Origin: Opitutaceae bacterium
GTDB lineage: Bacteria; Verrucomicrobiota; Verrucomicrobiia; Opitutales; Opitutaceae
DNA: 34,805 nt
Direction of reading: 5' to 3'
Assembly (NCBI GenBank): GCA_024711005.1
Contig: JANJTQ010000087.1
Span: forward strand, 1-34,805
A model generated the notes under the pieces. It searched no databases, was not told the DNA's origin, and saw only the letters and a program-made list of their open reading frames with translations. Below are positions 11,066-31,269 of this stretch, in pieces. A program made the translations under genes and the position numbers. Position 1 is the stretch's first letter. The number at the start of each line of letters is the position of its first letter.

Positions 11066-11071
11066 GGAGAC

Positions 11072-12151: not shown

Positions 12152-12626
12152 AGGAGATAAGGGCGGGGATAGATTCGCAGGATTGGCGTGCGGACTACGC
12201 GGGAAACGGAAAGAAATTTAAAAGGCGGGAAGGGGAAAACGGTCGGCCAATCCTGGGTGCCGTTGTTCAGTAACACAAAGCGGTCGGAGAGGGCGGCGAT
12301 GGGGGCGGGGGATGACGGAACGAGCATCCCAAGCGGATAAGAGGCGGTTGTCCAGACGAGGATGAGTTTATCCGTTCATCGGAGCGGAGCACGGTCGGAG
12401 GGATTGCTATATTGTCTCACGAAACCAAGGCGTTGAACCCAAGGGATTCGAACCTTGGGAGGAGGGCGGTTGAATTGCTATAATTGAGGACGAAAAAATT
12501 ACGGAGCGGGGTGCGTTTTGCGGCCGAAAAGCTGTGGGTGGAGTGATGTGACGGCGCCGGCGATGCCGTATTCAAAATAAAACTACGGACGGACGCCGAG
12601 TGACGGGCGGTTGTTTCCGCGGCGAC
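12152..12626. other. Gene-free stretch upstream of moxR
   Basis: No convincing ORF is seen in these 475 bp. It should hold the leftward promoter for the moxR operon, but I cannot place it with confidence. It carries a perfect 7-bp hairpin, CCCAAGG and CCTTGGG around GATTCGAA, at 12438-12459. The hairpin is flanked by two copies of ATTGCTATA(A)TTG at 12403-12414 and 12474-12486. A rightward TTGGGA/TATAAT pair (12455, 12479; 18-bp spacer) has no gene to serve. Confidence 0.5.
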
Positions 12627-13493
12627 TCATTCGATGCACTTCCAAGGGGCGCGGTCGGTGACGAAGGTGGCGCTGTCGGATGGGTGCGGTGCGAGTTGGA
12701 AGAGAGGGAGGATCGCCTGGCCTTTGGCGTTGGAGGAATAGCGTTCGCCTTTTTTCTCGTAGAGGAGAACGCCGTGAAACCGGCCGCCGGGGCGTTCGCC
12801 GATGAGGATGTCGATGTCGACCGGTTGGTCGGCTTTCAGGTTCATCCAGGTTCCATATTTCGCGAGAGTATTGGCCGCGACGGTCGGGCCCTTGTCCGGG
12901 GCTTCCCTCCACGCGAGCTTGGGCAGACGCGTGTCGGGGCGGCTGCCGTCAAGAACGACTTTGCGGTTGATGGCGACGACGAGCAGATCATCGACGTTGC
13001 CCACGAAACGGTAGGTGCCATCGGCAGGCGGGGCGATTTGCCCCTTGTAGTGAACCACCCAATACCGGGGCTTCACCAGCCCCTCGACGCCGAATGCCTT
13101 GGGGGCGGCGCTCGCATCCATGTTGGGCATGGAAAACTGCGTCGTGTAGAGCGGGAGGGCCGCGCGGAAAAAGCGGTTGAACAGCGCCTCGTCGAACTCG
13201 GATTCCAGGAATGCGTCGATCTCAATGACGTAACGGCGGGCGAAATCCGGGATCGGTTCCCGCTGCTGGGTCTGCTTCAGGTCGTAGAAGATGCCGATCA
13301 GCGTGGCGCCGTCCCGCTCGTGGCGTCCGAAGACGTTCTCGTTTTGGCCGATGGCGGGTGTGGCGCTCAAGAAAGCCATGAGCACGACCGGGGCAAAGAG
13401 TCCCTTGGCGTCTTGGCGAACGCGTCGGGGACCGATGAAAGCGCGGCGAAGTGCGTGCTGGGGGCGGGTCTTGGAACTGAGGGGCGGGTACAT
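12627..13493 (-). CDS. Secreted PA14-like protein
   Basis: The protein has 288 residues from ATG 13491-13493. A longer in-frame extension runs antisense through psd and is rejected. A basic N-region (RRAFIGPRRVRQDAKG) and hydrophobic core (LFAPVVLMAFLSATPAIG) form a signal peptide; ATG 13377-13379 is an alternative start that would remove the basic region. The mature part has a helical segment, then IAPPADGTYRFVGNVDDLLVVAINRKVVLDG, which resembles PA14-type beta-sandwich domains that bind carbohydrate or act as surface modules. It closes with DIDILIGERPGGRFHGVLLYEK. It is transcribed divergently from psd, with 144 bp between the starts. The specific role is unknown. Confidence 0.75.
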   Translation of the reverse strand: MYPPLSSKTRPQHALRRAFIGPRRVRQDAKGLFAPVVLMAFLSATPAIGQNENVFGRHERDGATLIGIFYDLKQTQQREPIPDFARRYVIEIDAFLESEFDEALFNRFFRAALPLYTTQFSMPNMDASAAPKAFGVEGLVKPRYWVVHYKGQIAPPADGTYRFVGNVDDLLVVAINRKVVLDGSRPDTRLPKLAWREAPDKGPTVAANTLAKYGTWMNLKADQPVDIDILIGERPGGRFHGVLLYEKKGERYSSNAKGQAILPLFQLAPHPSDSATFVTDRAPWKCIE

Positions 13494-14598: not shown

Positions 14599-14682
14599 GC
14601 CCGGGTGGTGGAATGGCAGACACGAGGGTCTTAGAAGCCCTTGCCGTAAGGTGTGCAGGTTCGAGTCCTGTCCCGGGCACCA
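14599..14682 (+). tRNA. tRNA-Leu (anticodon UAG)
   Basis: The acceptor stem GCCCGGG (14599-14605) pairs with CCCGGGC (14672-14678), and ACCA follows, with the CCA encoded. The anticodon stem AGGGT/GCCCT encloses the loop CTTAGAA, giving anticodon TAG at 14632-14634. The T-arm is GCAGG TTCGAGT CCTGT. The long variable arm is that of a class II tRNA. It reads CUA leucine codons, which are rare in this GC-rich sequence. Confidence 0.95.
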
Positions 14683-14888: not shown

Positions 14889-17792
14889 ATGTCCGGGTTT
14901 TTCCTTATGCGTCTACCCCTGCGCCGATTTTCGCCTTCGACTGGTACCGCCCGCTTCGCCTGCGGCCTTGGCGTTGCCATGATCACAGCCACGGGCGCGC
15001 AGGCCCAGATCCAGGTGCCGCTCCCTCAGATTTTGGGCGAGGCCGACATGCAGATCAAAGCCCGGAAATCCGCCGATGCGGCCGCGCTTTTGGACATGGT
15101 CTTGGCTCGCGTTGAAAAAGGCGAACCCCTGCCGGCCGGCGTGTCGCTTGCGACGGTGCAGTTGCTCGCGGCCAATACCTATTTCCAACTGCAGAATTAT
15201 GCGCGTGCCGAAGAGATCGGAACCGCCCTCCTCAAACACACGACCACGGGCCAGGTTGCGGCGGACGCTCGTCTGGTACTCGGTCTTTCCTTGGCCCTGC
15301 AGAAGAAATTTGCCGAGGCGGTGCCGGTTTTCCAAGCGCTTGAGGAGTCCACGGTTCATCGAGATAAGGCGCTCATGTATCGCTCGATGGCCGCGCAGCA
15401 GGCCGATCAGCCGTTGGTCGCCATTGACGCGCTGAACCGTCTGCTCGCCTCCGCTCCCCGTGATGCCGACTGGGCCGATTCCGCGCTCACTTTGATCGCC
15501 TTGCAGCTCGAGCAGGGAAATCTCCCCGCCGCCCGCCGTGGGTTGGAACTCCTTCGAGGGAGTCTGAACACGGTCGACAATCTTGCCGGTCTCAATGTCC
15601 TCAGTCTTCGACTGGGCGACACCCTCCTTACCACCGATCCGGCCGGAGCGCTCACCGCCTATCGAACGGTGTTGCCGCGCGCAGAACTGCTCCGCCTCCA
15701 AAAGCAGCGTATCGATCGGATGGAGGCTCTTCTTGCCCGGCAAAAAGCGATGTTTCACGGTTCCATCAGCGATGCCGACATGGTTCGTCGCGTTGAATCG
15801 CGCATCAAAGCCACCAAGGAAGCGCTCGACGAGATCGGCAAGCGGGCCGATTACGATGCCACTCTTTTCTATCGTCTTGGCCATACGTTCCTTCTGCGGG
15901 GAGGCGCTTGGGAGGCGGCCATCGTCTTCGAGCGCCTGATCAAGGAGTACCCCCAGGCCGAGGAGCGCGAGCTTGCGTACGCGGAACTCGTTCGTGCATA
16001 CGCGGATTCGGGGCGCGTTGATAAAATGCGCATCGCCCTGGACGATTTCATGCGCGCGCTCCCGGACAGCAAATTGCTGCCCCAATCCCTCTATGTCGCG
16101 GCTCAAGCGGCTTTCGAGAAAGGACGCGCCGACTTGCAGCTTGAATTTCTTGAGGTTGGCATTTCCCGGTTCCCCGAGGCCGAACTCGCCGAGTTTATGT
16201 TGCTGATGCAGGCCAACGCCCATTTTGCCGGTGGCCGTTTCGAGGAGGCGCATGCGTCGGCGAGCAGCTACGTTACGAAATATCCCGAGGGGAAATTTGC
16301 GGAGGACGCGACGTACCTGCGCGCAATGGCGACCCTCGTCTTGGGCCGTGCCTCCGACGCCGTCAAAGAGATCAACGAATACCTCGCAAAGTATCCGGAG
16401 GGACGTTTCGTCGCCGATGGCCGGTACCGCATCGCCGCCGCGTTCTACGCGATGCAGGATTATCCGGCCGCCGAGAAACAGCTCGACGCATGGCTGGCCG
16501 ATTACCCGGAAGGTCATCCGCAGCGCGGCGAAGCCTACTCAACCCAAGGCGACGTGTATGCCGGTCAAAACCTGATCGAAAAGGCGATTGCGAGCTACCG
16601 CGCGGCCTTGGCCACTCCGTTGGGCGACGACCAGCTCGGCTACGTTCTCGACGAATTGACCAAGCACTACCAATCCAAGCGCGACTACAATGCCGCCGCT
16701 GTGATTTGGGAGGATTTTGCCCGCGAACGTCCGGATCACCCCTTCGTCATCAACGCCGCTTACTGGATCGGTCGCTTGCGGTCACGCGAAGGCAAGACCG
16801 ACGAAGCAATCGGACAGATGGGCGAAATCGCCCGTCGCTATATCACCGATCCCAATCGCGACGCCGTCGAACGTCTGCTGACGCAAATGGCCGCTCTTCT
16901 GGCCCGCAACCCCCGTCCCGGCCCCGACGGAGTGCGTCCGCCTCCGCCTTCACCACGGCAGATCGCCGCGCGCATCGAGCGGGAGCTGGTGACCAACGAA
17001 AACCACGGTCAGCCCACGGTGAAAGCACGTGTGCTCTTCACCGAGGCAGAGGTGGCCTCGCTGCGAAAAGACGCCGCCTTGCGCGATCAGCTCCTGGCTC
17101 GAATCGGCAACGAGATTCCTCCCGAGGCGCTTCCTCCCGGCCTGTTGGGGCGCGTGGGTGATCTTCTCCGCGAGCAGGGCAAACTGGAGGCCGCCCGCGC
17201 CTGTTATGATCAGCTGGTGTTGCGCTATCCGCGTTCGATGTATGCCGATTTCGGATACGTCGGGCTTGGCGAGTTGGCGTATCTCGCAGGCGATTACGAC
17301 AGCGCCCTCGTTCATTTTACCAACGCCATCGATCGCGCCGGCGCACGCTTCAAGCTCCTCGAGGCCACCCTTGGGCGGGCAAAAACGTTGCTCGCCGCCA
17401 ACCGACTCGAAGACGCCAAGGAACTGTTCGAGCAGGTCGCCGGCACCCGTGCCTGGCGCGGCGAGGCCACCGCCCAGAGCATCTATTCGCTCGGCGAAAT
17501 CCTTCTTAAACGCGGCAGCTCCGAAGACCTCGCGCAAGCCCAGGCTCACTTCCAGCGCGTCTTCATCTCCTATCGCAAGTTCACCCCGTGGGTTGCTCGC
17601 GCCTACCTGAGCGGCGGCCAGACGTTTGAAAAGCTCGGCAAACCCGCCGAGGCGCTTGCCACGTACCGTGAGATGCTGAGGGACGAACGTCTCGCCTCCT
17701 ACCCTGAAACTGCGCGGGCTCGCGAACGTATCGCGGTCCTCGAACTGCAACTCCCCGCAACGGCCACGGCCAGCACAGGAGGCGCCTCATGA
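14889..17792 (+). CDS. Large exported TPR-repeat protein
   Basis: The protein has 967 residues from ATG 14889; ATG 14907 is an alternative with a tighter basic N-region. A signal peptide ends near ATGAQAQ. The rest is almost entirely tetratricopeptide-type helical hairpins, for example YLRAMATLVLGRASDAVKEI and AAAFYAMQDYPAAEKQLDAW. A proline-rich break (RPGPDGVRPPPPSPRQ) near residues 675-690 separates two TPR arrays. Such proteins are scaffolds for envelope complexes. Its stop overlaps the start of the next gene (ATGA 17789-17792), and the set continues with ExbB/ExbD, so it likely serves as the periplasmic platform of a proton-motive-force-coupled machine. Function is inferred from context only. 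Confidence 0.85.
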   Translation: MSGFFLMRLPLRRFSPSTGTARFACGLGVAMITATGAQAQIQVPLPQILGEADMQIKARKSADAAALLDMVLARVEKGEPLPAGVSLATVQLLAANTYFQLQNYARAEEIGTALLKHTTTGQVAADARLVLGLSLALQKKFAEAVPVFQALEESTVHRDKALMYRSMAAQQADQPLVAIDALNRLLASAPRDADWADSALTLIALQLEQGNLPAARRGLELLRGSLNTVDNLAGLNVLSLRLGDTLLTTDPAGALTAYRTVLPRAELLRLQKQRIDRMEALLARQKAMFHGSISDADMVRRVESRIKATKEALDEIGKRADYDATLFYRLGHTFLLRGGAWEAAIVFERLIKEYPQAEERELAYAELVRAYADSGRVDKMRIALDDFMRALPDSKLLPQSLYVAAQAAFEKGRADLQLEFLEVGISRFPEAELAEFMLLMQANAHFAGGRFEEAHASASSYVTKYPEGKFAEDATYLRAMATLVLGRASDAVKEINEYLAKYPEGRFVADGRYRIAAAFYAMQDYPAAEKQLDAWLADYPEGHPQRGEAYSTQGDVYAGQNLIEKAIASYRAALATPLGDDQLGYVLDELTKHYQSKRDYNAAAVIWEDFARERPDHPFVINAAYWIGRLRSREGKTDEAIGQMGEIARRYITDPNRDAVERLLTQMAALLARNPRPGPDGVRPPPPSPRQIAARIERELVTNENHGQPTVKARVLFTEAEVASLRKDAALRDQLLARIGNEIPPEALPPGLLGRVGDLLREQGKLEAARACYDQLVLRYPRSMYADFGYVGLGELAYLAGDYDSALVHFTNAIDRAGARFKLLEATLGRAKTLLAANRLEDAKELFEQVAGTRAWRGEATAQSIYSLGEILLKRGSSEDLAQAQAHFQRVFISYRKFTPWVARAYLSGGQTFEKLGKPAEALATYREMLRDERLASYPETARARERIAVLELQLPATATASTGGAS

Positions 17793-18589
17793 AAACAATT
17801 CTTTGTGCATTACTCGCTCTGGCCGCTGTGTCGCCCCTGTGCGCCCAGCGTTACCTTCTCAAAGACGGACGGGTGCTCAATCACGCGGACGTGACTCTGA
17901 GCGGTACCAACCTCGTTCGCTCGGTCGGCGACGGTGCGGAGATTGCCTATCCGGTGTCCCAAGTGATCCGCCTCGACTGGCCTGAGCCCGAGGAAATCGC
18001 GCAGGCTCGCGAGCTCGTACTCACGGGCAAAGGAGCTGAAGCCGAGGAGAAGATCACCCCGATTTATCGCCAGTTTGCCCCTTTCTCGAAATTGCCGGGG
18101 TCTTGGTGGAGCGAAGCGGCGTTGATTCGCGCCCGTGCGCTTCTCGCCCAAGAGAAAAACAGCGAGACCGAGCGTGCGGCGCGCGAGCTCATGTCCACCT
18201 CCACCGATTCGGAGACCGTCGCGGCCGCGCAATTGATCATGGCTCGCATCCAGATGTTGCTCGATAAAGCCGACATCGCCGATGCGATGCTGGACGAAAT
18301 CATGCGGAAGGATGCCTCCGCCGAGATCGAGGCTCGCGCCGCCATCCTGCGCGGCGACATCGCATATGCACGGAAGGACTTCGAGAAGGCGTTGGAGTTT
18401 TACCTTCAGGTGCCCGCTTTTTACGGAACCGAAGAAGCCGTCATGCCGGTCGCCCTGTTGGGCAGCGCACGCGCCTACCAGGGCTACGGCGACAAGACCA
18501 GGGCTGAACGCGCTTATCTCGATATCATCGTAACTTATCCCGATAGTGCGGAAGCGGCCATAGCCACGACCGAGTCCGCAGCCCTCTGA
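17789..18589 (+). CDS. Small exported TPR protein
   Basis: The product has 266 residues with a short signal peptide (ILCALLALAAVSPLCAQ). Residues about 20-60 form a small beta-rich module (YLLKDGRVLNHADVTLSGTN ending at VIRLDWPEP). The remainder is helical TPR-like repeats (RAAILRGDIAYARKDFEKAL, GSARAYQGYGDKTRAERAY). The start overlaps the stop of the large TPR gene, so both should be made in fixed ratio. It probably binds the same envelope complex. A 41-bp gap with little structure leads to exbB. Confidence 0.8.
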   Translation: MKTILCALLALAAVSPLCAQRYLLKDGRVLNHADVTLSGTNLVRSVGDGAEIAYPVSQVIRLDWPEPEEIAQARELVLTGKGAEAEEKITPIYRQFAPFSKLPGSWWSEAALIRARALLAQEKNSETERAARELMSTSTDSETVAAAQLIMARIQMLLDKADIADAMLDEIMRKDASAEIEARAAILRGDIAYARKDFEKALEFYLQVPAFYGTEEAVMPVALLGSARAYQGYGDKTRAERAYLDIIVTYPDSAEAAIATTESAAL

Positions 18590-18630: not shown

Positions 18631-19446
18631 ATGAAATCCACCCTCCGCCGCCTCACCGGCATTGCCGGTCTGATCACCGCCAGTCCGCTCGCCCTCCTTG
18701 CTCAGGAAGCTGCCGCCGCCGCTCCCACGGTCGTTAAGCAGTCCCTATTGCAGGACCTCAGCGCCCCTGCGATTCTTCCTCTTTGGCTCTGCTCCGCGCT
18801 CATCGTTTATCTGGTGATCGATCTTTCCATGAAGACGACGGCGAAGGCATTCATCTCGCCAGTGGCGGTTGATGCGTTCCGCGCCTATTTCCGGGCCGGC
18901 GACTACCGCGGTGCGTACGCTTGGGCGCAAGCCAACCCCGGTCTTTTGGCCAATGTCGTTTTCGCCGGCCTCAAGCACGCTCCCGGAGGCAAGCAGGCCG
19001 CCGAAGATGCGATGGCCTCGGCCATCATCGGCGAAAATGCCCGCTTCCAGAGCAAAATCGCCTATCTCTCCGTTATCGGCGTTATCGCTCCGATGATCGG
19101 TCTCACCGGTACGGTTATCGGCATGATCCAAGCCTTCGCGGCGATGGGCCAGGCCGGAGCCGCCGATCCTTCCAAGCTCTCGGGCGCCATCGGTCACGTG
19201 CTCTACGCGACGGCCTCCGGTCTGGCGGTCGCAATCCCTGCGTTCATCTTCTACTACCTCATCCGCAACCGCGTGGGACATGCCGTTCATGCGCTGTCGG
19301 ATGTCGCCAACGATCTGTTCCGCAAGTTCCCCTACAACCACCTCGCCGACGTTGAGTTTGAAGGTGGCGAGAGTTTTGCCGCTACGCCCAACTGGGTTGC
19401 CGGCAGCCCGACCTTCGTGGCCTCCGCCGAAGGGCAGCAGGCCTGA
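18631..19446 (+). CDS. exbB: ExbB/TolQ/MotA-family proton channel protein
   Basis: This is the inner-membrane motor subunit that, with ExbD, uses the proton motive force to energise envelope work. Its 271 residues start with a signal-like segment (GLITASPLALLAQEAAAAA). Then comes TM1 (ILPLWLCSALIVYLVIDL), a cytoplasmic loop (about residues 70-140), TM2 (YLSVIGVIAPMIGLTGTVIG) and TM3 (YATASGLAVAIPAFIFYYLI). The conserved Thr residues of TM2 (LTGTV) and TM3 (ATASG) that line the proton path are present. The extended N-terminus is common in this branch. A stem-loop follows the gene before exbD. Confidence 0.93.
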   Translation: MKSTLRRLTGIAGLITASPLALLAQEAAAAAPTVVKQSLLQDLSAPAILPLWLCSALIVYLVIDLSMKTTAKAFISPVAVDAFRAYFRAGDYRGAYAWAQANPGLLANVVFAGLKHAPGGKQAAEDAMASAIIGENARFQSKIAYLSVIGVIAPMIGLTGTVIGMIQAFAAMGQAGAADPSKLSGAIGHVLYATASGLAVAIPAFIFYYLIRNRVGHAVHALSDVANDLFRKFPYNHLADVEFEGGESFAATPNWVAGSPTFVASAEGQQA

Positions 19447-19510: not shown

Positions 19511-19936
19511 ATGGCAGGTGGTGGTGGTGGTGCTGATGGCGAGCCCGAATTCCAAATCGCCCCGATGATCGACGTGCTTCTCGTGCTGCTCATCTTCTTC
19601 ATGAGCATCGCGACGACCGCGGTCTCGCGTTACGACCCGTCCATCGAGCTCCCCGTGGCGCCCGACGCCAACAAGAAGGACGACTCGGAAGGCGAACTCG
19701 TCTTCAATGTCGCCTGGCGTGCGCAGACACAGTCGGCGGTGACCACCTTCGAGGAGCATGTCGTCAACGTTGACGATGTTGTCGCCACGTTGATCGCCCG
19801 AAAAAAGGCCAATGACAAAGTTCGTGTGCTGGTGCGCAGCGATGCACTCACGCCTGTTCGTTATATCTCCGCCGTCGTGGAGGCCGCCGCCAAGGCGGGC
19901 ATCTCCGACGTGACTTTCGCCACCCTTAGCCGCTGA
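19511..19936 (+). CDS. exbD: ExbD/TolR-family protein, first copy
   Basis: The protein has 141 residues with one N-terminal membrane helix, PMIDVLLVLLIFFMSIATTA. The helix carries the essential proton-binding Asp of the PMIDV motif. A periplasmic domain follows, with DDVVATLIARKKANDKVRVL and the terminal YISAVVEAAAKAGISDVTFA typical of ExbD. A Gly-rich start (GGGGGADGEPEF) precedes the helix. It lies 65 bp after exbB and 10 bp before a second exbD. Two different ExbDs suggest a hetero-oligomeric peg in the ExbB channel. Confidence 0.93.
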   Translation: MAGGGGGADGEPEFQIAPMIDVLLVLLIFFMSIATTAVSRYDPSIELPVAPDANKKDDSEGELVFNVAWRAQTQSAVTTFEEHVVNVDDVVATLIARKKANDKVRVLVRSDALTPVRYISAVVEAAAKAGISDVTFATLSR

Positions 19937-20402: not shown

Positions 20403-21863
20403 ATGAGCACCCCCCATCCCAACCTTTACAAGCGACTCACCGCCAGTGTACCGCTGCTCGTCACGGTGATTGTGCATGTGATCCTTATCGCCGTCGCCGG
20501 GTACTTCGTCAGCGAACAGATCATTGGCAAAAAAAAGATTTTGGAGGCGAGGGCCCCCACCGAAAATGTCGCGCAGAAGCAGGTTGAGCATCGCCTGCAG
20601 GTTGCCCGTAAGGGGGGCGGCTCCGCGAGTTCCTCGCCGGTGTCCGCTTCGCGTATTTTTTCGACCGCCGCGAACGCCTTGCAGATGCCTGAAATGCCCG
20701 ACCTGCCGTCCGTGGGAGCCAGCTCATTGAGCGGCATGGGCTTCGGCAAAGGCATGGGTGCCGTCGGCACCGGTACGGGCTATAACACCGGTATCGGCTC
20801 GGGAAGCGGACTTGGGCGGGGATTCATGAGCATGAGTTTTCTGGGCGTGACCAGTCAGAGCGCGTCCAAGATCGTATTCATTGTGGACGTGGGACGCAGT
20901 CTGCTCGACATCCGCAAGGGCGGATTCGAGGCCTTCACCATCATCCGTGAAGAGATCATGAAACTGGTCAATCGCCTGCCCCCGACCGCCGAGTTCGGCG
21001 TGGTCCTTTATGAAGGACAGCGTTGGAGCAATAACTCGGTCGCGGCCTTCGACGCGAAGCTATTGCCCGCCACGGTCGGTAACAAACAGGAATTTTTTGA
21101 ATGGATCGGCCCCGTGAATGCGACACCGGACCGCATTGGATTGTCATCGGTGTCGGGACGCCGGCAGCGCTGGACCCCCAAAGATATTTCGAGCGCCGGG
21201 ATCGATCCGCTGCTTAACACCCCGGAATGGTCGCGCGCCCTTCACTATGCTTTCGAAATGGAACCGGATACCATTTACATCATTTCCGGTAGCCAGGGCT
21301 CGCTCAAACGGGATGTCTCCGAAGCCGAGTTGGCCCGTCGCAAGCGGGCGTATGAAGAACGCATCGCCGACCTAAAGCGCCAAGGTTATGACTTGGCCGC
21401 AGTCTCCGCCGCGCGCAATCGGGCTCTCAGCAAAGCCCGGGCGGAATTGAACGCGATCAACAACCAACTGCGCGCGAAGGGCAAATCGCCGTTCATTATC
21501 ACGGATACAAGACGTATCTTCGAGTCGGACTTTCAGGCGGCCCTCAAGCGTGCCGGCTTTAGCATCAAGCTCGATAAGACGGGTTGGACCAATAAGCAGG
21601 GGCAGCTGATGTGGGGCGATGGCTATTCGGATGACACGGCTGCTCCGTTCAGCGACCTTATCCTACACGTCTCCAAGCTTAAGCGCGCATTGCTGAAAGA
21701 TCAGACGGCCATTAACTATTTCCTCTTCGTCGGTCCGGACGAAAAACCCCAGTCCTCGATGGACAACCTTAGCGACTTTACGCGTCGCAATAACGGCAAG
21801 TTCGAGTTGCTGACGACCAAGCGGCTAAAGGAAATCGCCGCTCGCGACGAGCAGGGCAACTGA
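20403..21863 (+). CDS. Membrane-anchored VWA-like protein in the TonB position
   Basis: The product has 486 residues. A short cytoplasmic tail and one membrane helix (VPLLVTVIVHVILIAVAGYF) give TonB-like topology. A Ser/Gly-rich linker follows, with GMGFGKGMGAVGTGTGYNTG repeats (about residues 110-145). Then comes a VWA-like domain opening with SKIVFIVDVGRSLLDI, where the MIDAS DxSxS has become D-V-G-R-S, so metal binding is doubtful. Residues about 305-365 are a charged helical insertion (LARRKRAYEERIADLKRQGY). The C-terminus is not a TonB domain. It probably transmits ExbBD movement to the TPR proteins or another periplasmic target. No terminator with a T-run follows. Confidence 0.75.
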   Translation: MSTPHPNLYKRLTASVPLLVTVIVHVILIAVAGYFVSEQIIGKKKILEARAPTENVAQKQVEHRLQVARKGGGSASSSPVSASRIFSTAANALQMPEMPDLPSVGASSLSGMGFGKGMGAVGTGTGYNTGIGSGSGLGRGFMSMSFLGVTSQSASKIVFIVDVGRSLLDIRKGGFEAFTIIREEIMKLVNRLPPTAEFGVVLYEGQRWSNNSVAAFDAKLLPATVGNKQEFFEWIGPVNATPDRIGLSSVSGRRQRWTPKDISSAGIDPLLNTPEWSRALHYAFEMEPDTIYIISGSQGSLKRDVSEAELARRKRAYEERIADLKRQGYDLAAVSAARNRALSKARAELNAINNQLRAKGKSPFIITDTRRIFESDFQAALKRAGFSIKLDKTGWTNKQGQLMWGDGYSDDTAAPFSDLILHVSKLKRALLKDQTAINYFLFVGPDEKPQSSMDNLSDFTRRNNGKFELLTTKRLKEIAARDEQGN

Positions 21864-22405: not shown

Positions 22406-23080
22406 ATGTTAGCTCCTCCCCAACCTCATCCTGCAGAGATCGAACACCTTGTCCGTCGGGCGCTTTACCAGCGCCTCGGCCGGGTTGCTCCGCTTCAGGT
22501 GAGGGCGCCAAATCCGCTCCTCGTCAACGTTTCCGCCCGGCACTGCCATCTCACGCCGGAGGCCGTCGAAATTCTGTTCGGCAAGGGCCGCAAACTGACC
22601 CCCAAGAAGTGGCTCTACCAGAAAGACCAATTCGCAGCCGAGGAGAGAGTCACGCTCATCGGTCCGCGTAGCCGCGTGATTTCCAATCTCCGCATTCTCG
22701 GGCCTTGCCGGGATTTCAACCAGGTGGAACTCGCCCTGACCGATTCGATCGCGCTCGGCTTTGAAATTCCGGTGCGTCAGTCGGGCAACATCAAAGGCAC
22801 CACCGGTTGCATGCTCATGGGCCCGGCCGGTTTTCTGGAACTGACCGAGGGCGTGATTCGTGCCGCACCTCATGTCCACATGCATCCCGACGACACCGCA
22901 TTTTATGGCGTGAAGGCCGGCGACTTTATGCGTCTGCGCATCGGCGGACCGTGCGCCGTCACCTTCGAGCGGCTGCTCGTGCGCGAGCACGTCGATTTCA
23001 AATTGGAGGTCCATATCGACACCGACGAGGCCAACGCCTGCGACCTCCGTCCCGACACGCCGGTCGAACTCCTCAAGTAG
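22406..23080 (+). CDS. pduL: PduL-type phosphotransacylase
   Basis: PduL swaps CoA for phosphate on an acyl-CoA inside the microcompartment, recycling CoA and giving acyl-phosphate. The 224 residues start with an amphipathic helix (AEIEHLVRRALYQRLG) that fits an encapsulation peptide. The two PduL half-barrels follow. Zinc-ligand motifs are VNVSARHCHLT near residue 40 and the HVHMHPDDT cluster near 157. RQSGNIKGTTG and GPAGFLELTEGVIRA are also typical. As first gene of the locus it is 45 bp before the first shell gene. In this pathway the substrate is probably lactyl-CoA rather than propionyl-CoA, an inference from the aldolases nearby. Confidence 0.95.
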   Translation: MLAPPQPHPAEIEHLVRRALYQRLGRVAPLQVRAPNPLLVNVSARHCHLTPEAVEILFGKGRKLTPKKWLYQKDQFAAEERVTLIGPRSRVISNLRILGPCRDFNQVELALTDSIALGFEIPVRQSGNIKGTTGCMLMGPAGFLELTEGVIRAAPHVHMHPDDTAFYGVKAGDFMRLRIGGPCAVTFERLLVREHVDFKLEVHIDTDEANACDLRPDTPVELLK

Positions 23081-23125
23081 CCCGACCCGACTTTTTCGCT
23101 CCATCACCCGTCAACTCACCTCACT

Positions 23126-23395
23126 ATGAATGATTCCATCGGATTAATCGAAACCCGCGGCTACACCGGCTCCGTCGAAGCCAGCGATGCCATGGTCAAA
23201 GCCGCCAGCGTCACCCTCGTTCGCACGTTCCAGATCGGCGGCGGCCTCATCACCGTCGCGGTCAAAGGCGATGTCGGCTCCGTGAAGGCCGCCGTCGAGG
23301 CCGGTTCAGAAGCCGCCAAACGCGTCGGCGAGCTCGTCAGCTCGCACGTCATTCCCCGCCCGCATCCCGACCTCCTCAAACAAATCGGTCTCTAA
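23126..23395 (+). CDS. BMC-H shell protein 1
   Basis: This is a hexameric shell facet protein of 89 residues, a single BMC domain. The typical features are IGLIETRGYTGSVEASDAMV at the start, GDVGSVKAAVEAGSEAAKRV in the middle and the HVIPRPHPDL tail. The pore loop reads IGGGL, against GSG in PduA, so the central pore is lined by glycine only. It starts 45 bp after pduL and is followed by the second BMC-H. Confidence 0.96.
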   Translation: MNDSIGLIETRGYTGSVEASDAMVKAASVTLVRTFQIGGGLITVAVKGDVGSVKAAVEAGSEAAKRVGELVSSHVIPRPHPDLLKQIGL

Positions 23396-23478
23396 CGAAA
23401 CGCGTCCGTCCGCGGCCCCTTTTGCCGCAGCGAACATCGCGCCCTCTCTCAACGTTCATCGCTCAACACCTCCTCCCC

Positions 23479-23769
23479 ATGGCACAACTCGCCCTCGGTA
23501 TCATCGAAACCAAAGGTTTCATCACGCTGCTCGAAGCCGCCGACTCCGCCCTTAAGGCCGCCAACGTCACCATGACCGGCTATGAAGCGGTCGGCAGCGG
23601 CTACGTCGCCGCTTTCTTCCGCGGCGATGTCGCCGCCGTCAAATCCGCCGTCGAAGCCGGTGCCGAATCCGGCAAACGCGTCGGCGAAATCATCAGCGTC
23701 CAGGTCATTCCCCGTCCGCACGACGACCTCGCCGGCCTGGGCAAATGGCTCGCCGCTCCCGCCGCCTGA
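23479..23769 (+). CDS. BMC-H shell protein 2
   Basis: This 96-residue, single BMC-domain protein starts at ATG 23479 (MAQLALGIIETKGF). An in-frame extension to 23422 is unlike the family and is rejected. The pore loop reads VGSGYV, the canonical PduA-type motif. The tail VQVIPRPHDDL is standard, followed by a short Ala-rich end. With BMC-H1 and BMC-H3 it should form the facets of the shell. It lies between BMC-H1 (83 bp) and the kinase gene (37 bp). Confidence 0.96.
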   Translation: MAQLALGIIETKGFITLLEAADSALKAANVTMTGYEAVGSGYVAAFFRGDVAAVKSAVEAGAESGKRVGEIISVQVIPRPHDDLAGLGKWLAAPAA

Positions 23770-23806
23770 CCGCGTTCGCCCAACCTCCGGGTTCAACCTT
23801 CGTTCA

Positions 23807-25045
23807 ATGAACATCCTCGTCGCCAACCTCGGTTCGACTTCGTTCAAATACCGCCTCTTCCGCATCGACGGCTCCACCGAGCAGCTCGTTGCCAAGGGCG
23901 GTTATGAACGCGTCACCGACTATGGCCGCGCCATCGACGACTGCCTCGCCGCGCTGCGACAAGCCGGCCATGTGCGCGACGCGAGTGGTCTTCATGGCAT
24001 CGGTTTCAAGACCGTTCAGGGCGGCGAGGTGACGGGTTGCCTGCCGGCGGATGAACGGGTCGAGAACGCGTTGCTTGCCACCGCCGACTTGGCGCCGGCT
24101 CATAACCCGCCCTACGCCTCCGGCATCCGCCAATTTCGCGAGAAGCTTCCCGGCGTGCCGCTCGTCGCGCTCTTCGAGACGGCGTTCTACCAATGGGTGC
24201 CAAAGTACGCCAACAGCTACGCGGTTCCGTTGTCCTGGCGTGCGGTGGGCGTGCGTCGCTACGGATTCCATGGCGCGAGCCACAAGTATGTCGCCGAACG
24301 ATCCGCCGAATTACTCGGACGCGCCGATGTCGCCGACTTGGTGCGCGGTCTTTATCAACACGGTCCGCGTCCCGTGCCCGGCGTGTTCTTGCGAGTGATC
24401 TCGTGTCATCTGGGCGGTTCCAGCTCCGTCACCGGCATCGTCGATGGCGTGGCGATTGGCACCAGCATGGGTCTGAGCCCGCAGAGCGGACTTCCCCAAA
24501 ACAACCGCGTTGGTGATCTCGATTCCGCCGCGATTCCCTACGTTCAAAAAAAGCTCAATCTCACCACCGCCGAGGTCGAGCATCAGCTTACCAAGGAAGC
24601 CGGCCTTCTTGGGCTGTCGGGCATCAGCAACGACCTTCGAGAGATTCGCGCCGCCGCCCTCGCCGGCGATCGCCGCGCCGAATTGGCCATTGATGTTTTC
24701 GTTCATTCCATCCGCCATTGGATCGGTGCCTTCTGGTTTGAGATGGGCGGCTGTGACGCCCTCGTATTCACCGCCGGTATCGGCGAAAACAACCCGTGGT
24801 TGCGTGAAGCGGTCTGCGCCGGCCTCGGCGACCTGGGCCTCTATCTCGACTGTGAGCGCAACGAGATCGCGCTGCCCGAAACGGATCTCGCCACCTCCGA
24901 TTCGCGTACGCGTGTCCTCGTGATTCCCGCCAACGAAGAACTCGTCGTCGCCCGCGAAACCTTCCGCCACCTCGCCGCCGCATCCGATGCAAGCGGCACC
25001 GCATTCTCCCGCTCTCTTTCGTCTCTCTCAATCACCTCAACCTAA
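23807..25045 (+). CDS. ackA: Acetate-kinase-family acyl kinase, BMC-associated
   Basis: The protein has 412 residues from ATG 23807. It should transfer phosphate from acyl-phosphate to ADP, giving ATP as the last step of the pathway. Family motifs are NLGSTSFKYRLF at residue 7, LAPAHNPP, YGFHGASHKYV with the catalytic His, GTSMGLSPQSG, NRVGDLDSA with the catalytic Arg and Asp, GISNDLREI, and FTAGIGENNPW near residue 320. The substrate motif that normally reads GHRVVHGG is GFKTVQGG here (Lys 68, Gln 71), and the segment before it is about 20 residues shorter than in classical AckA. This suggests a different acyl group, possibly lactyl. It sits between shell genes, a typical PVM arrangement. 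Confidence 0.9.
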   Translation: MNILVANLGSTSFKYRLFRIDGSTEQLVAKGGYERVTDYGRAIDDCLAALRQAGHVRDASGLHGIGFKTVQGGEVTGCLPADERVENALLATADLAPAHNPPYASGIRQFREKLPGVPLVALFETAFYQWVPKYANSYAVPLSWRAVGVRRYGFHGASHKYVAERSAELLGRADVADLVRGLYQHGPRPVPGVFLRVISCHLGGSSSVTGIVDGVAIGTSMGLSPQSGLPQNNRVGDLDSAAIPYVQKKLNLTTAEVEHQLTKEAGLLGLSGISNDLREIRAAALAGDRRAELAIDVFVHSIRHWIGAFWFEMGGCDALVFTAGIGENNPWLREAVCAGLGDLGLYLDCERNEIALPETDLATSDSRTRVLVIPANEELVVARETFRHLAAASDASGTAFSRSLSSLSITST

Positions 25046-25057
25046 ACTCCACTCGTC

Positions 25058-25372
25058 ATGTCCCAAGCTCTCGGCCTCCTCGAAACCCGCGGTCTCACCG
25101 CTCTCGTCACCGGCACCGATGCCATGCTCAAGTCCGCCAACGTCACCTTGGTGTGCCCCATGAAGCAGGTCGGCAACGCCCTCGTCACCGCCCTCGTCAC
25201 CGGTGATGTCGCCGCCGTGAAAGCCGCCGTCGACGCCGGCGCGCAAGCCGCCCGCACCGTCGGCGAGGTCGTCTCCGTCCAGGTCATCGCCCGGCCGCAC
25301 GGCGACGTCGCCGCGATTCTACCCAAGCCCGCCGCGCCCGTCGCCGCCCCGGCACCCACCGCCAAAAAATAA
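25058..25372 (+). CDS. BMC-H shell protein 3
   Basis: This single BMC-domain protein has 104 residues and starts [12 protein letters not shown], 12 bp after the kinase. [20 protein letters not shown] and [11 protein letters not shown] are standard. The pore loop reads VGNALV in place of GSG, placing Asn and Ala at the central opening. A flexible tail rich in Ala and Pro ([16 protein letters not shown]) extends beyond the domain and may bind cargo or another shell protein. Confidence 0.95.
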
Positions 25373-25438
25373 CATCGTTCGGTAACCTCTCTTCGTCGTC
25401 TGCGGTTGCCTCGTCGGCCGCCGATGTGCGCTCCCTCC

Positions 25439-25753
25439 ATGTTCCTCGCCCGAGTCATCGGCTCCCTGGTCGCCACCAAAAAAGACGCGGCCATGACCGG
25501 CCGCAAACTGCTCCTTCTTCGCCCGCTCCTCATCGACGAGGCGAATCCCGGACAGTTCCGTCCGGGCACTAACACCGTCGTCGCGGTCGACTCGCTCGGA
25601 GCCGGCATCGATGAGGTCGTCCTCTTTTGCCAGGGAAGTTCCGCTCGCGGCGCCGCCGGCATGAAGACGCTGCCCATCGACGCCGCCGTCATCGGGATCG
25701 TCGATACCGTCGATGTGTTGAACAAGAAAATCTATCCCTCCGCCAACGGCTGA
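25439..25753 (+). CDS. BMC-P (EutN/CcmL) pentamer protein 1
   Basis: This pentameric vertex protein has 104 residues from ATG 25439 (MFLARVIGSLVATKK). The family pattern is KLLLLRPL, NTVVAVDSLGAGIDEVVLF, GSSAR and the closing PIDAAVIGIVDTVDV. It is the most canonical of the three BMC-P proteins here. Pentamers cap the vertices of the icosahedral shell. It is followed after 5 bp by the aldehyde dehydrogenase gene. Confidence 0.95.
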   Translation: MFLARVIGSLVATKKDAAMTGRKLLLLRPLLIDEANPGQFRPGTNTVVAVDSLGAGIDEVVLFCQGSSARGAAGMKTLPIDAAVIGIVDTVDVLNKKIYPSANG

Positions 25754-25758
25754 TCCTC

Positions 25759-27228
25759 ATGAGCACCACGCTCCCTTTAGACGAAACCTCCCTGCGCGCC
25801 ATCGTTGACGAGGTCCTCCGCGGACTTCATCGCAACCCCGCCGCGCCCGTCGTCGCGCCCGTCGTCGCGGCCGCGGTGGTCGCGCCCCGGCGCGAATCGC
25901 GCTTCGGTGTTTTCACCGATGTCGGAGCCGCTTGCGGAGCCGCCCACCGTGCCTTCCTGCAGCTTCAGGAAAAGGGGGTCGCGGGCCGCGTGAAGGTCAT
26001 TGAGATCGTCAAAGGTCTCGCGGAAGCCAACGCCGTCGAGTGGGGGAAAATCGAATTCGAGGAGACCAAGATCGGCCGTCTCGCGCACAAGATTGAAAAA
26101 CTTCAAATCGTGAAACTGGTTCCCGGCGTCGAGTGGCTGCGGCCCTACGCGCTCTCCGGAGACAACGGCATCACCCTCGAAGAATGCGCGCCCTTCGGTG
26201 TCATCGGTGCCATCACGCCTGTCACTCATTCGGTTCCGACCATCTCCGGCAACATTGTCAGCATGGTCGCCGCGGGCAACGCCATCGTCTTCAACCCGCA
26301 TCCCGGCGGAGCCCGTTGCGCCACCGTTGCCGTGCGTGCCTTCAACGAAGCGATTCATGCCGCGCTTGGCATTGAGCACCTCATCTGCGTCATCGCCGAT
26401 CCGTCGATCGATACGTTCAACGCGCTCTGCCAAAACGAGCATGTCCGCATGCTCTGCGTCACCGGCGGTCCCGCCGTCGTGAACGCCGCGATGAAATCCG
26501 GCAAACGCGCGGTCTGCGCCGGTCCGGGAAATCCGCCCGTCGTGGTTGATGGCACCGGCAATCTCGCCAAGGCCGCCGCCGACGTCATCAAGGGCGCGGG
26601 TTACGACAACAACCTTCTCTGCATCGGCGAAAAACAGGTCTTCGTACTCGAACACGTTGCCGAACGTTTCATGAACGAGCTCGCCACCGCCGGCGCCGCC
26701 AAGCTCACCGCGCCGCAGCTCGCCCGACTCACCTCGGCCGCGTTTACCACCGGCAAGGACGCCGGCGGTTGCTCGCATCCCGTGCTCAACCGGAAGCTCG
26801 TCGGTGTCGACGCCTCCGTTCTCGCGCAACAAGCCGGTGCGACCGTGTCCGCCGACGTTCCGCTGCTCTTCGCCGAGACGGATGCCGAACACCCGTTCGT
26901 CATGGAAGAGCAGATGATGCCCATGATCCCGGTCGTGCGTGTGAAGACGTTTGGAGACGCCGTCTCCGCCGCGCTGAAGAGCGAGCACGGCTACAAACAC
27001 TCCGCCATCATTCACTCGCTGAACGTCGAGCACATGACGCAGATGGCCCGCGTCCTCGACACCACGCTCTTCGTGAAGAACGGCCCGAGCACCGCGGGCC
27101 TCGGCCTCGGCGGCGAGGGCTACCTCAACTACTCCATCGCCACCACCACCGGCGAAGGCATCGCCACGCCTCGCACGTTTACCCGCACGCGTCGCTGCGT
27201 GATGGTCGAAAACCTTCGCATCTACTAA
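25759..27228 (+). CDS. CoA-acylating aldehyde dehydrogenase (PduP/EutE type), microcompartment-targeted
   Basis: The enzyme has 489 residues and converts an aldehyde, CoA and NAD+ to acyl-CoA and NADH. ATG 25759 is chosen; earlier in-frame codons overlap the BMC-P gene. The N-terminal 18 residues after the start (DETSLRAIVDEVLRGLHR) form an amphipathic helix like PduP targeting peptides, joined by an Ala/Pro/Val linker. The catalytic Cys is C288 in NNLLCIGEKQVF. GAITPVTHSVPTISGNIV and the substrate loop GKDAGGCSHP are conserved. The likely substrate is L-lactaldehyde, made by the aldolases encoded downstream. It lies 2 bp before the next shell gene. Confidence 0.95.
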   Translation: MSTTLPLDETSLRAIVDEVLRGLHRNPAAPVVAPVVAAAVVAPRRESRFGVFTDVGAACGAAHRAFLQLQEKGVAGRVKVIEIVKGLAEANAVEWGKIEFEETKIGRLAHKIEKLQIVKLVPGVEWLRPYALSGDNGITLEECAPFGVIGAITPVTHSVPTISGNIVSMVAAGNAIVFNPHPGGARCATVAVRAFNEAIHAALGIEHLICVIADPSIDTFNALCQNEHVRMLCVTGGPAVVNAAMKSGKRAVCAGPGNPPVVVDGTGNLAKAAADVIKGAGYDNNLLCIGEKQVFVLEHVAERFMNELATAGAAKLTAPQLARLTSAAFTTGKDAGGCSHPVLNRKLVGVDASVLAQQAGATVSADVPLLFAETDAEHPFVMEEQMMPMIPVVRVKTFGDAVSAALKSEHGYKHSAIIHSLNVEHMTQMARVLDTTLFVKNGPSTAGLGLGGEGYLNYSIATTTGEGIATPRTFTRTRRCVMVENLRIY

Positions 27229-27230
27229 AA

Positions 27231-27497
27231 ATGCAGCTCGCGCGCATCGACGGAACCGTGCTCGCCACCGTGTGCCATCCCAGCATGCGCGGACGTCGCA
27301 CCGTCATTTGCCAGCCGCTCGATGCCGACGGACGCGACGATGGCCCGCCCGTCCTCGCCGTCGATCCGCACGGAGCCGGCCTCCATCAGCACGTGCTCGT
27401 TAGCACCGATGGCTCCGCCACCCGCGAGCTCGTGCGCGACGAACACTCGCCTCTCCGAAACTTCGTCCTCGCGATCGTTGACGAAGCCACCGCGTAA
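27231..27497 (+). CDS. BMC-P (EutN/CcmL) pentamer protein 2
   Basis: The protein has 88 residues from ATG 27231, two bases after the dehydrogenase stop. LARIDGTVLATVCHPSMRGR, then VICQPLDADG and VLAVDPHGAGLHQHVLV follow the EutN fold. The pore region reads STDGSATREL and the sequence is the most divergent of the three. Three BMC-P paralogues are usual for PVM-type loci. Confidence 0.9.
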   Translation: MQLARIDGTVLATVCHPSMRGRRTVICQPLDADGRDDGPPVLAVDPHGAGLHQHVLVSTDGSATRELVRDEHSPLRNFVLAIVDEATA

Positions 27498-27515
27498 GAG
27501 CCGCCCGCGCCACCT

Positions 27516-27548
27516 CTTTCAGCCCTTCAGCCTTTCAGTCCTTCAGTT
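27516..27548 (+). repeat. Short tandem CTTTCAGCC-type repeat
   Basis: Four imperfect units (CTTTCAGCC, CTTCAGC, CTTTCAGTC, CTTCAGTT) fill the 63-bp gap between two BMC-P genes. A looser relative (TTTCAACCCTTTAACTCC) lies before exbD at 19484-19501. No function is evident. Confidence 0.5.
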
Positions 27549-27560
27549 CTTTTCTTCCTC

Positions 27561-27860
27561 ATGCGCCTCGGACACGTCATCGGCACCGTCACTCTTCACA
27601 CCGCGGACGCGGCGTTGAGGGGCGGATGCCTGTTGATCGTGCAACCCTTGTCGCGTCAGCAATTCGCCGGAGCACCGCTGCTCCCGCCGGCCAAGGGCAA
27701 CACGCTCGTTGTTTACGACAACCTCGGAGCCGGACTTGGACAGGTGATCGGCTTCACCGAGGGCGCCGAAGCCACCATGCCGTTTTCCCATCCGATCCCG
27801 ATCGATGCGTTCAACGCCGCGATCATCGACTCGTTTTCTTACACACCGCCCGCCGCCTAA
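27561..27860 (+). CDS. BMC-P (EutN/CcmL) pentamer protein 3
   Basis: This 99-residue protein starts MRLGHVIGTVTLHTADAAL. LLIVQPLSRQQFAG, then NTLVVYDNLGAGLGQVIGFTEGAEA and PIDAFNAAIIDSF are EutN-like. It ends 12 bp before the aldolase gene. The three vertex proteins here differ strongly, so mixed vertices or distinct roles are possible. Confidence 0.93.
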   Translation: MRLGHVIGTVTLHTADAALRGGCLLIVQPLSRQQFAGAPLLPPAKGNTLVVYDNLGAGLGQVIGFTEGAEATMPFSHPIPIDAFNAAIIDSFSYTPPAA

Positions 27861-27872
27861 TTCACTTCCGCC

Positions 27873-28967
27873 ATGCGCCAAGTCATCACCGCTCAGGACA
27901 TCGAAACGCTTTTTCGCAACGGCACCGCGCTGCCCGACGACGCGATCCTCACACCGTCCGCGCGTGATGCCCTGCGCAGCCGTGCGTCGCTCCTGCCCGC
28001 CTCCGGTGTAGGCCGCCCGATCGCGGGCACTTCGTCTTCCGCTTCCGCCTCGCAATCCGACGAACCCGTCGTTCCCGATTACGAATTCAAATGGAAGCCC
28101 GGCTCCGATCCCAAGACGCCCGCCGAAATCGCCGCGTTCTTTAACTCGCCCGCGATCAGAATCCTCAAGGAGCGCATGTGTGACATGGGCCGCCGCATGT
28201 GGGCGAAGGACTACACCGACGGCAATGGCGGCAACATCACCATCCGCGTCGGTGACAACCTCGTGCTGTGCACGCCCACGCTCATCTCGAAAGGTTTTAT
28301 GCAGCCGTCCGACATCGGGCTTATCGACATGGACGGCAAGCAACTCGCCGGGACGCGCAAACGCACCAGCGAAGCGATGACGCACCTGGGCATCATGAAG
28401 CGCCAGCCGCTTTGCAAAGCCTGCGTCCACGCGCATCCGCCGCACGCCACCGCCTTTGCGGTTGCCCGCGTCCAGCCTCCGACCTGCCTCATTCCCGAGG
28501 CCGACATTTTCCTGGGCAAGATCGCCCTCGCTCCCTACCAGACGCCTGGCTCGCCCGAGAACGCCGACACGGTGGGCGAGATCGGCAAGGACAATCAATG
28601 CGTGCTGATGCTGAACCACGGCGTGATCACCTGGGGCAAGGACGTCGAAGACGCGTATTGGAAAATGGAAAACGCCGACGCCTACTGCAAAACCATCTGG
28701 ATCGCCTCCCAGCTTGGCGGCCAACTCGGCGAAGGCGTGGGTGGCAACAAGGCCAAGGAGTTCGTCAAAATCCGCAAAATGCTCGGCATGCCGGACAATC
28801 GCGACGGCCTCAAAGAGTGCGAGCTCTGCGACAACAGTGATTTCCGTCCGGGCGTCCAATGCCAGATCCCCGACAAAGCCGAGCCCGCATCGCCCGCCGC
28901 CGATCCGGCCGTCGAAGCAATGGTCCGCACCATTGCCTCCCAAATCCTCCAACGCCTCAAAGGCTGA
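27873..28967 (+). CDS. Class II aldolase (fuculose/rhamnulose phosphate type) with C-terminal encapsulation helix
   Basis: The protein has 364 residues. It should split L-fuculose-1-P or L-rhamnulose-1-P into DHAP and L-lactaldehyde using zinc. The N-terminal 75 residues are an extension with a Ser/Ala-rich linker. The aldolase domain spans about 80-310: GGNITIRVGDNLVLCTP, the zinc ligands in CVHAHPPHATAF, and a third His in MLNHGVITWG. A Cys-containing segment (CELCDNSDFRPGVQCQ) follows. The last 21 residues form an amphipathic helix (AVEAMVRTIASQILQRLKG) after a Pro/Ala linker, resembling encapsulation peptides. This makes it the probable lumen aldolase. It ends just before an inverted-repeat element. 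Confidence 0.92.
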   Translation: MRQVITAQDIETLFRNGTALPDDAILTPSARDALRSRASLLPASGVGRPIAGTSSSASASQSDEPVVPDYEFKWKPGSDPKTPAEIAAFFNSPAIRILKERMCDMGRRMWAKDYTDGNGGNITIRVGDNLVLCTPTLISKGFMQPSDIGLIDMDGKQLAGTRKRTSEAMTHLGIMKRQPLCKACVHAHPPHATAFAVARVQPPTCLIPEADIFLGKIALAPYQTPGSPENADTVGEIGKDNQCVLMLNHGVITWGKDVEDAYWKMENADAYCKTIWIASQLGGQLGEGVGGNKAKEFVKIRKMLGMPDNRDGLKECELCDNSDFRPGVQCQIPDKAEPASPAADPAVEAMVRTIASQILQRLKG

Positions 28968-28973
28968 GTTATT

Positions 28974-29070
28974 TTACCACGGAGGTGACGGAGAGCACGG
29001 AGGAGAAGATGAGCCACGGAAGGGACTTCATAATACTTCTCTCCATCTCCTCCGTGAGCCCCGTGGTTAA
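28974..29070. repeat. ACGGAG-type inverted repeat between aldolase and dehydrogenase genes
   Basis: The left arm (28974-29005) contains TTACCACGGAGGTGACGGAG and related ACGGAG units. The right arm (29041-29070) is its imperfect reverse complement, ending CCGTGGTTAA. The arms are about 35 bases apart. A single-arm relative with CTCCGTGACCTCTGTG is at 31171-31190. It would form a hairpin in the operon RNA and may affect stability. Confidence 0.75.
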
Positions 29071-29114
29071 GGACCCCCGATTTCCGGCCTGATCGCTACT
29101 CGCTACTTCTAAAA

Positions 29115-30044: not shown

Positions 30045-30255
30045 TTTTGAAGGAGCGGCGGTAATCCTGCCGCCGGATCGAAGAAAATTGCGCAGGCCTC
30101 CAGTCGGCATCCGCTTCCACAGCAGACCGGAAGCCGCGCTACTTTTTCATACCGGCGATCCGCCCACGCCGAATCCGATGCGAAAGCGCTCCGAACGTTC
30201 CTTTCCGGCGCCGATCGTAGTTGCGTAACGCTTTCTGCTCAAACGGACCAAACCT

Positions 30256-30280
30256 ATTTGTCACTTAATAAGTGACAAAT
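30256..30280. promoter_or_regulatory. Perfect 25-bp palindrome, putative operator
   Basis: ATTTGTCACTTA and TAAGTGACAAAT flank a single central A with no mismatch. It sits about 70 bp upstream of the predicted promoter, the position of an activator or upstream repressor site. It is AT-rich within a GC-rich region and lacks a T-run, so a terminator is unlikely. Confidence 0.65.
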
Positions 30281-30313
30281 CTTCAGGCTGGGGGCGTGCG
30301 CTGTCTTTCGGTG

Positions 30314-30353: not shown

Positions 30354-30366
30354 CACTCTATGGGGC

Positions 30367-31131: not shown

Positions 31132-31170
31132 TCCGGAATTTTGTCATTTCTCTCATAAAATCGCCCCGTC

Positions 31171-31200: not shown

Positions 31201-31269
31201 GGCTCGGCTCCGTGACCAATCCGAAAAACTCCCCGTAACTCTCAATTCACACACCTCACACCTCCGTCC

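Follow-up and report, generated by a model that had tools for sequence, protein, structure and literature searches.

A proton-motor operon ending in a VWA force transducer is related to the Mul1 locus and may serve TonB-independent glycan import

The window analysed here, a stretch of 34,805 nucleotides from an Opitutaceae bacterium (GenBank assembly GCA_024711005.1, contig JANJTQ010000087.1), is one whole contig (C262) of a genome of 351 contigs and 5.01 Mb. Six genes lie head to tail and tightly packed on its forward strand between positions 14889 and 21863, with the start of the second overlapping the end of the first (17789 versus 17792). Scans for promoters and terminators found nothing exceeding shuffled sequence. 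The operon and the gene that precedes it are:

14599-14682: tRNA-Leu gene, preceding the operon
14889..17792, + strand: TPR1, a 967-aa TPR protein (Pfam TPR_16, 1.4e-27) whose N-terminus reads as signal-like
17789..18589, + strand: TPR2, 266 aa, a short N-terminal region followed by TPRs; a distant Mul1B homologue
18631..19446, + strand: ExbB/TolQ-type motor subunit, 271 aa (PF01618, 8.5e-27)
19511..19936, + strand: ExbD1, 141 aa (PF02472, 4.5e-18), with the conserved Asp read as D21 in IAPMID
19947..20393, + strand: ExbD2, 148 aa (PF02472, 4.2e-15), with the conserved Asp likewise read as D21 in IAPMID
20403..21863, + strand: VWA force-transducer protein, 486 aa, in the TonB place; exact open reading frame with an ATG start

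The preliminary description of this DNA had given the order TPR, TPR, ExbB, ExbD, ExbD, VWA, which is borne out by the Pfam matches and coordinates, and its reading frame 20403-21863 is exact. It had also claimed that the unit encodes no TonB domain or TonB receptor. Indeed, neither was matched on C262: the three TonB_C places and 16 TonB-receptor barrels of the genome all lie on other contigs, so the unit holds neither of the two hallmarks of a TonB system. The two ExbDs are unlike one another. ExbD2 represents a subfamily distinct from ExbD1, and profiles of the two separate the paired ExbDs of each locus, with the exceptions of the second gene of L107 and one gene of L209.

The 486-aa VWA protein matched zero Pfam families at E ≤ 0.1. 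An AlphaFold2 model, built from the window protein and five relatives, delineates its parts:

20427..20525, + strand: single TM helix, model residues 9-41 (AlphaFold2), which holds the conserved H25
20475-20477, + strand: codon of H25, a TonB-type histidine
20526..20858, + strand: disordered linker, residues 42-152, Gly-rich in its second half
20859..21854, + strand: C-terminal head of VWA fold, residues 153-484 (AlphaFold2, Foldseek, VIA-align)
20886..20900, + strand: degenerate metal motif DVGRS (D162), placed by alignment A1

The pLDDT is below 50 over residues 37-152, whereas the head (153-484) is mostly confident and includes a long helical insertion at about residues 307-383. Foldseek matches of the head are VWA folds, and VIA-align superposes it on ITIH1 (6fpy_B) with Z 16.5 over 163 residues at 2.4 Å and, again with Z 16.5, on the VWA domain of ITIH4 (9c4f); 160-163 residues are aligned across ITIH1 and ITIH4. 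The profile of A1, an alignment of 23 transducers comprising 22 VWA proteins and one row with a PA14-like head (L108), reaches 6fpy_A by sequence alone with E 1e-3. The earlier claims of a single-pass protein with a Gly-rich linker and a VWA-like fold are therefore upheld, and the structure prediction that had been proposed as a check, run on the single chain, returned the VWA fold. H25 is kept in 22 of the 23 rows of A1, although the literal string SHLS is absent from the window protein. The reported degeneracy of the metal motif is also correct: the window reads DVGRS in place of the DxSxS of MIDAS-type VWA domains, and the same loss runs through A1, where DxSxS is intact in 1 of 22 VWA rows, making degeneracy a trait of the family. 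What is conserved is the TonB/TolA-type motor histidine, not the metal site. Together with the linker, the VWA fold and the conserved gene order, this histidine agrees with the earlier placement of a VWA protein at the TonB position of a PMF motor.

This architecture has been described before. PMC12204202 (Mol Biol Evol 2025) describes TM-linker-vWA proteins of PVC bacteria whose genes follow TPR, tolQ-like and two tolR-like genes. It predicts that these proteins dock at the TonB site of the motor through a conserved TM histidine, likens the family to YfbK, and states that their function is unknown, perhaps gliding, with no phenotype known for any of them. The window operon is a real and conserved member of this kind: it shares with those transducers a TM helix with the conserved motor-type histidine, a disordered linker, a vWA head and an upstream TPR-tolQ-tolR-tolR set. 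It differs from the kind described there in having a second TPR gene (the Mul1B homologue), additional transducers without a motor, and a chassis that also occurs with PA14-like heads. In its main text, PMC12204202 never uses the words Akkermansia, mucin, PA14, polysaccharide or MUL1. As far as our searches of the open-licence PMC literature show, both the kinship with the Mul1 complex and the exchange of heads on a common chassis are new.

TonB itself is laid out as a TM histidine, a linker and a head. The window unit resembles TonB-ExbB-ExbD in motor type and in this layout, but it carries a VWA head instead of TonB_C, lacks a receptor, and adds two unlike ExbDs and a TPR scaffold. The VWA fold is also common to the window protein and E. 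coli YfbK-type proteins; in contrast, PF12034 and PF12450, present in L043 and L044 of the same genome, are absent from the window protein at E 0.1. L043, L044 and L077 were rejected as transducer copies for being YfbK-type proteins. In two genus genomes a YfbK-type VWA protein lies beside a sigma-70-type (ECF-like) factor (L043, 7012-9801; L077, 9067-11799), and the one in L043 has a further match to an anti-sigma model.

The operon is conserved. VWA matches at E ≤ 1e-3 occur in 31 of 56 genomes, the window's own included: every one of the 13 genus members, 7 of 23 genomes from elsewhere in the family and 11 of 20 from the order. At 1e-6, the A1 profile matched at least 87 of 288 genomes of the phylum when the best five candidates per genome were scored, a search that the PA14-like row (L108) of A1 may have widened. 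The six-gene run recurs in 12 loci of the same family (L045, L047, L050, L059, L062-L069), with TPR1 ending at the contig edge in L050 and L064 and the VWA gene interrupted in L068, and more distantly in L074-L076, where VWA identity is 21-29%. The preliminary description had proposed to look for co-occurrence of this gene order, and these loci provide it. Three further loci (L070, L071, L073) hold TPR1, ExbB, two ExbDs and the VWA gene, a separate TPR2 not having been picked there; L072 consists of TPR1-TPR2-VWA with no motor match. The operon is also present in G088 (L203) and G131 (L222). TPR proteins, named earlier as partners of the motor, are constant across loci. Five relative loci whose VWA proteins are 46-75% identical (alignment A2) come from MAGs labelled Opitutaceae UBA4094, Rariglobus, Opitutus and others. 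Some loci depart from the standard arrangement: L222 (1731-15000) has one motor alongside two large TPR genes, a pair of single VWA transducers and a double-VWA protein of 781 aa; in L068 (8866-11659) the VWA gene is split by about 1.3 kb, possibly an insertion; and L207 of G088 (8018-13353) is a second TPR1-TPR2-ExbB-ExbD1-ExbD2 set with no transducer in the 650 downstream bases fetched.

The scaffold and motor connect this operon to the Mul1 locus of Akkermansia, whose Mul1B protein is a subunit of the mucin-uptake complex. Transport of mucin and its accumulation inside the cell are reported to require the MUL genes, which encode pili and a periplasmic complex (PMC12418764, PMC12928651, PMC12997984). 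MUL1 has been described as Sus-like, and according to PMC13174399 (2026) its synteny is absent in aquatic Akkermansiaceae. TPR2 matches the Mul1B family model NF052542 at 9.8e-5 with 21.7 bits (19.6 bits in six frames), under the 75-bit cut-off, which makes it a distant homologue and not a member of that family. The cut-off of the model is exceeded in 27 of 288 genomes, 21 of which belong to genus g60, taken to be Akkermansia. ExbB, two ExbDs and a large TPR gene adjoin Mul1B in L103, L106 and L109, in the order ExbB-ExbD-ExbD-TPR-Mul1B; ExbB-ExbD-ExbD lies upstream of Mul1B in L104, and just the large TPR gene and Mul1B were seen in L105 and L110. L106 and L109 belong to f23 genera other than g60, and their gene order argues against this statement of PMC13174399 if f23 corresponds to Akkermansiaceae.

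Every component of this set has a homologue in the window. In an ExbB tree of 58 rows, 55 of them different, a 30-row clade with support 97/94 unites the ExbBs of the operon with those of Mul1 loci and excludes, among others, the ExbBs adjoining TonB (C13, C57). The tree holds four of the seven ExbB-type places of the window's genome (G000) and does not include the L203 motor of G088. The other three G000 places were scored by profile instead, giving 71 bits, 69 bits (a fragment) and no match, compared with 229-285 bits for the ExbBs of L108, L195, L198, L203 and L208; the window ExbB is thus the only one of the seven to fall in, or score like, the Mul1-related clade. The first and second ExbDs of L103, L104, L106 and L109 match ExbD1 and ExbD2, respectively. 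In HHalign, TPR1 and the large TPR protein of the Mul1B neighbourhood align at 99.94% (6e-37, 852 columns), against 78% over 121 columns and 94% over 158 columns for TPR controls. The TPR2 and Mul1B families align at 97.6% (E 3.2e-12) over 215 collinear columns, the Mul1B set for this comparison excluding L080, L081 and L083, wrong or empty ORFs among an initial 13. Controls against Mul1B gave 6.7% for TPR1, 0.3% for another TPR set and 49.5% for the large TPR. TPR2 also aligns with TPR1 at 95.8% over 148 columns, and the 97.6% is thus due in part to TPR units that the proteins have in common.

Two loci bridge the families. L108 is a full operon with all five partners, and its TPR2 protein matches both TPR2 (1.6e-53) and Mul1B (9.4e-8); L107, from genus g107, has the TPR-TPR-ExbB-ExbD-ExbD order of the window and a Mul1B match of 3.4e-10, under the cut-off. 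The window operon brings together the elements of a MUL1-type locus: a homologous ExbB, two unlike ExbDs, a large TPR protein and a Mul1B-like protein. It differs from the Mul1 loci in that their gene order is permuted (in L103, L106 and L109, as given above), its TPR2 scores below the Mul1B cut-off, and a search of the g60 and f23 Mul1 loci for transducer genes, VWA or PA14-like, found none. No g60 genome appears among the A1 matches listed from the best five candidates per genome. Five of the six f23 genomes outside g60 with Mul1B over the cut-off have an A1 match elsewhere, at 4.7e-9 to 6.4e-16.

Transducers also occur apart from the motor, and with a second type of head. The window's own genome carries two more full VWA copies (C45, 66%; C198, 53%), with no motor found adjoining. 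Among 15 such orphan VWA transducers from six genus genomes, the TM histidine is kept in 14, the fifteenth being cut at its N-terminus. G004 and G010 hold a second five-gene operon (L198, L195/L236) that ends in a transducer with a PA14-like head, whose N-terminus resembles that of the VWA protein (27% over 123 aa, E 1e-6); the head in the L108 operon is of the same type. Twelve further proteins with this N-terminus, eight long and four short, are encoded in G088, and the 3.5-6.5 kb retrieved around them contained no motor gene; all 11 of the 12 that were aligned have the PA14-like head. In the alignment of PA14-like transducers (A3), S23 and H27 are invariant in 13 of 13 rows. Matches to A3 were found in at least 64 of 288 genomes, taking the best four candidates per genome, and these include all 21 g60 genomes with Mul1B. 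The PA14-like membrane proteins displayed from g60 (L243, L247, L249-L255) have a TM-like helix and a linker, but the TM histidine is missing in 9 of 9; among the f23 proteins it is present in L241, L244 and L245 and missing in L242.

PA14 is a domain fold often found in sugar-binding proteins. PF07691 was matched by 1 of 13 A3 members (E 0.018) and a profile search with the PA14-like set found no PA14 structure, hence the name 'PA14-like'. The transducers of L211-L217 are about 630 aa long and have a further C-terminal part; SHD1 was matched by 4 of 13 A3 members, at best with 5.5e-8.

A PA14-like protein is also encoded in the window, upstream of the operon:

12627..13460, − strand: PA14-like protein without the TM-linker chassis (PF07691 4.7e-5, 0.3 bits under the cut-off; start codon uncertain)

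It is 39% identical over 235 aa to the head of the L198 transducer and is a possible partner of the operon. At least three more PA14-like proteins (C204, C107, C81) were found among four places scored in the same genome. Directly downstream of the operon, positions 22406-33459 hold a sugar-type bacterial microcompartment locus with genes for a PduL-type phosphotransacylase, a BMC shell protein, acetate kinase, an aldehyde dehydrogenase, two class II aldolase-domain proteins and a member of the lactate/malate dehydrogenase family. The PduL, BMC, acetate-kinase and aldehyde-dehydrogenase genes and the PA14-like neighbour were not found in any of 19 relative loci, two of which are orphan loci of the same genome and some of which reach less than 4 kb past the operon. 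We therefore dropped the link between microcompartment and operon, and the neighbours in the window are no proof of glycan uptake.

The surroundings of the orphan VWA genes were likewise considered. CAZymes made up 4 of 8 random neighbours (10 of 55 drawn at random, eight of them scanned) against 3 of 10 random control proteins; this is no difference, and enrichment around orphans was not borne out. A LacI regulator lies within 2.5 kb of 5 of the 15 orphans, where 0.70 would be expected; the P value of 4e-4 is optimistic, since the orphans all come from a single genus and are related to each other, and the test was post hoc, its distance picked after the loci had been inspected. A LacI-like protein beside L042 was left uncounted, scoring 21.7 bits against a Pfam cut-off of 27 and falling outside the E limit of the genome count. 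Very large GspK/Verru_Chthon-A-like pilin-type proteins (for example, L049 4762-8391) occupy 12-52 candidate places per genome in the six genomes. On the reverse strand of the window, two proteins are encoded at 5454-10025: a BatA-type one (7893-10025), which contains a VWA_2 domain, and, adjoining it, one of 810 aa with no Pfam match at 1e-5.

Several functions could be served by such a machine. TPR1 scores above the cut-off of the YbgF/CpoB model (158.7 versus 90.1 bits), and the best NCBI models for ExbB and both ExbDs are TolQ and TolR, all under cut-off. Both results would suit a Tol-Pal-like system that uses the PMF for envelope maintenance or outer-membrane tethering, the VWA head and TPRs stabilizing or remodelling the outer membrane with no import. 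We regard this as unlikely: neither Pfam nor NCBI models matched TolA, TolB or Pal among the six proteins, the ybgF match of TPR1 rests on seven TPR stretches, and the scaffold is related to Mul1. Moreover, 16 of 23 sampled family genomes from other genera show no VWA match at 1e-3, unlike what a housekeeping system would show.

A machine for adhesion, gliding or surface export (gliding being the suggestion made in PMC12204202) would be in keeping with the pilus adhesins 6m48 and 7ba2 among the VWA fold matches, with the weak resemblance of TPR1 to T9SS PorW/SprE (64.8 bits against a cut-off of 250), and with the large Verru_Chthon-A/GspK-like pilin-type proteins found within 10 kb of 6 of the 15 orphans, some of whose flanks are shorter. 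However, these pilin-type proteins are so common genome-wide that the co-location carries little weight, and the metal motif of MIDAS adhesion is lost; this reading, too, appears improbable. Least credible, and in our view very improbable, is a sensor whose motor would detect envelope load, or the binding of a ligand to the VWA/TPR scaffold, and signal inward. The anti-sigma/YfbK VWA proteins beside a sigma-70-type gene (L043, a separate family) are similar to the window protein in the linker stretch, but that stretch is of low complexity, and the window protein has a short N-terminus before its TM helix and no cytoplasmic regulatory domain.

The preliminary description had concluded that the operon is not a nutrient-uptake system. 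This was the least supported of its claims: the TPR/TPR/ExbB/ExbD/ExbD set is related to that around Mul1B, and PA14-like heads occur on the same chassis. Because the motor and scaffold are related to a mucin-uptake system, a polysaccharide importer is likelier than a non-nutrient device. Our leading hypothesis, resting on the Mul1 homology and the PA14-like heads and given a probability of roughly 0.47, is that the operon may encode a TonB-independent, PMF-driven glycan importer with exchangeable heads. The LacI neighbours of the orphans add some, though weak, evidence from gene neighbourhood. Against it count the TonB systems and 16 receptor places that the genome has of its own, the TPR2 score below the Mul1B cut-off, the permuted order of the g60 and f23 Mul1 loci, in which no transducer gene turned up, and the lack of a TM histidine in the nine PA14-like proteins displayed from g60.

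In such an importer, the inner membrane would contain a proton motor of the 5:2 type, built from ExbB and the ExbD1/ExbD2 pair. The VWA protein would dock at the side of the motor via its TM histidine H25, as TonB and TolA do, and the long linker would bring the VWA head into the periplasm. There, the two TPR proteins may act as a scaffold that the head engages, or may guide cargo; by Mul1 homology, the most likely cargo would be either large glycans themselves or a glycan importer of the outer membrane. As protons flow, the transducer would move and its head would pull, drawing polysaccharide into the periplasm without TonB or a TonB receptor. It is plausible that VWA or PA14-like transducers encoded elsewhere in the genome could plug into the same motor, giving it different heads.

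How Verrucomicrobiota import large glycans such as mucin, fucoidan and laminarin is only partly understood. We tentatively extend the importer reading, as a possibility that we hold somewhat less likely than its opposite, to the phylum and probably to other PVC bacteria: these may share a TonB-independent, proton-driven route of polysaccharide import, in which a constant motor/TPR scaffold in common with Mul1 would work with exchangeable VWA or PA14-like heads, of which one genome would carry several, often apart from the motor genes, much as several TonBs serve one ExbBD. Should the motor-TPR module prove widespread, with the VWA and PA14-like proteins as its pulling heads, glycan import would become open to direct testing, and, if true, this would be the first function for vWA force transducers.
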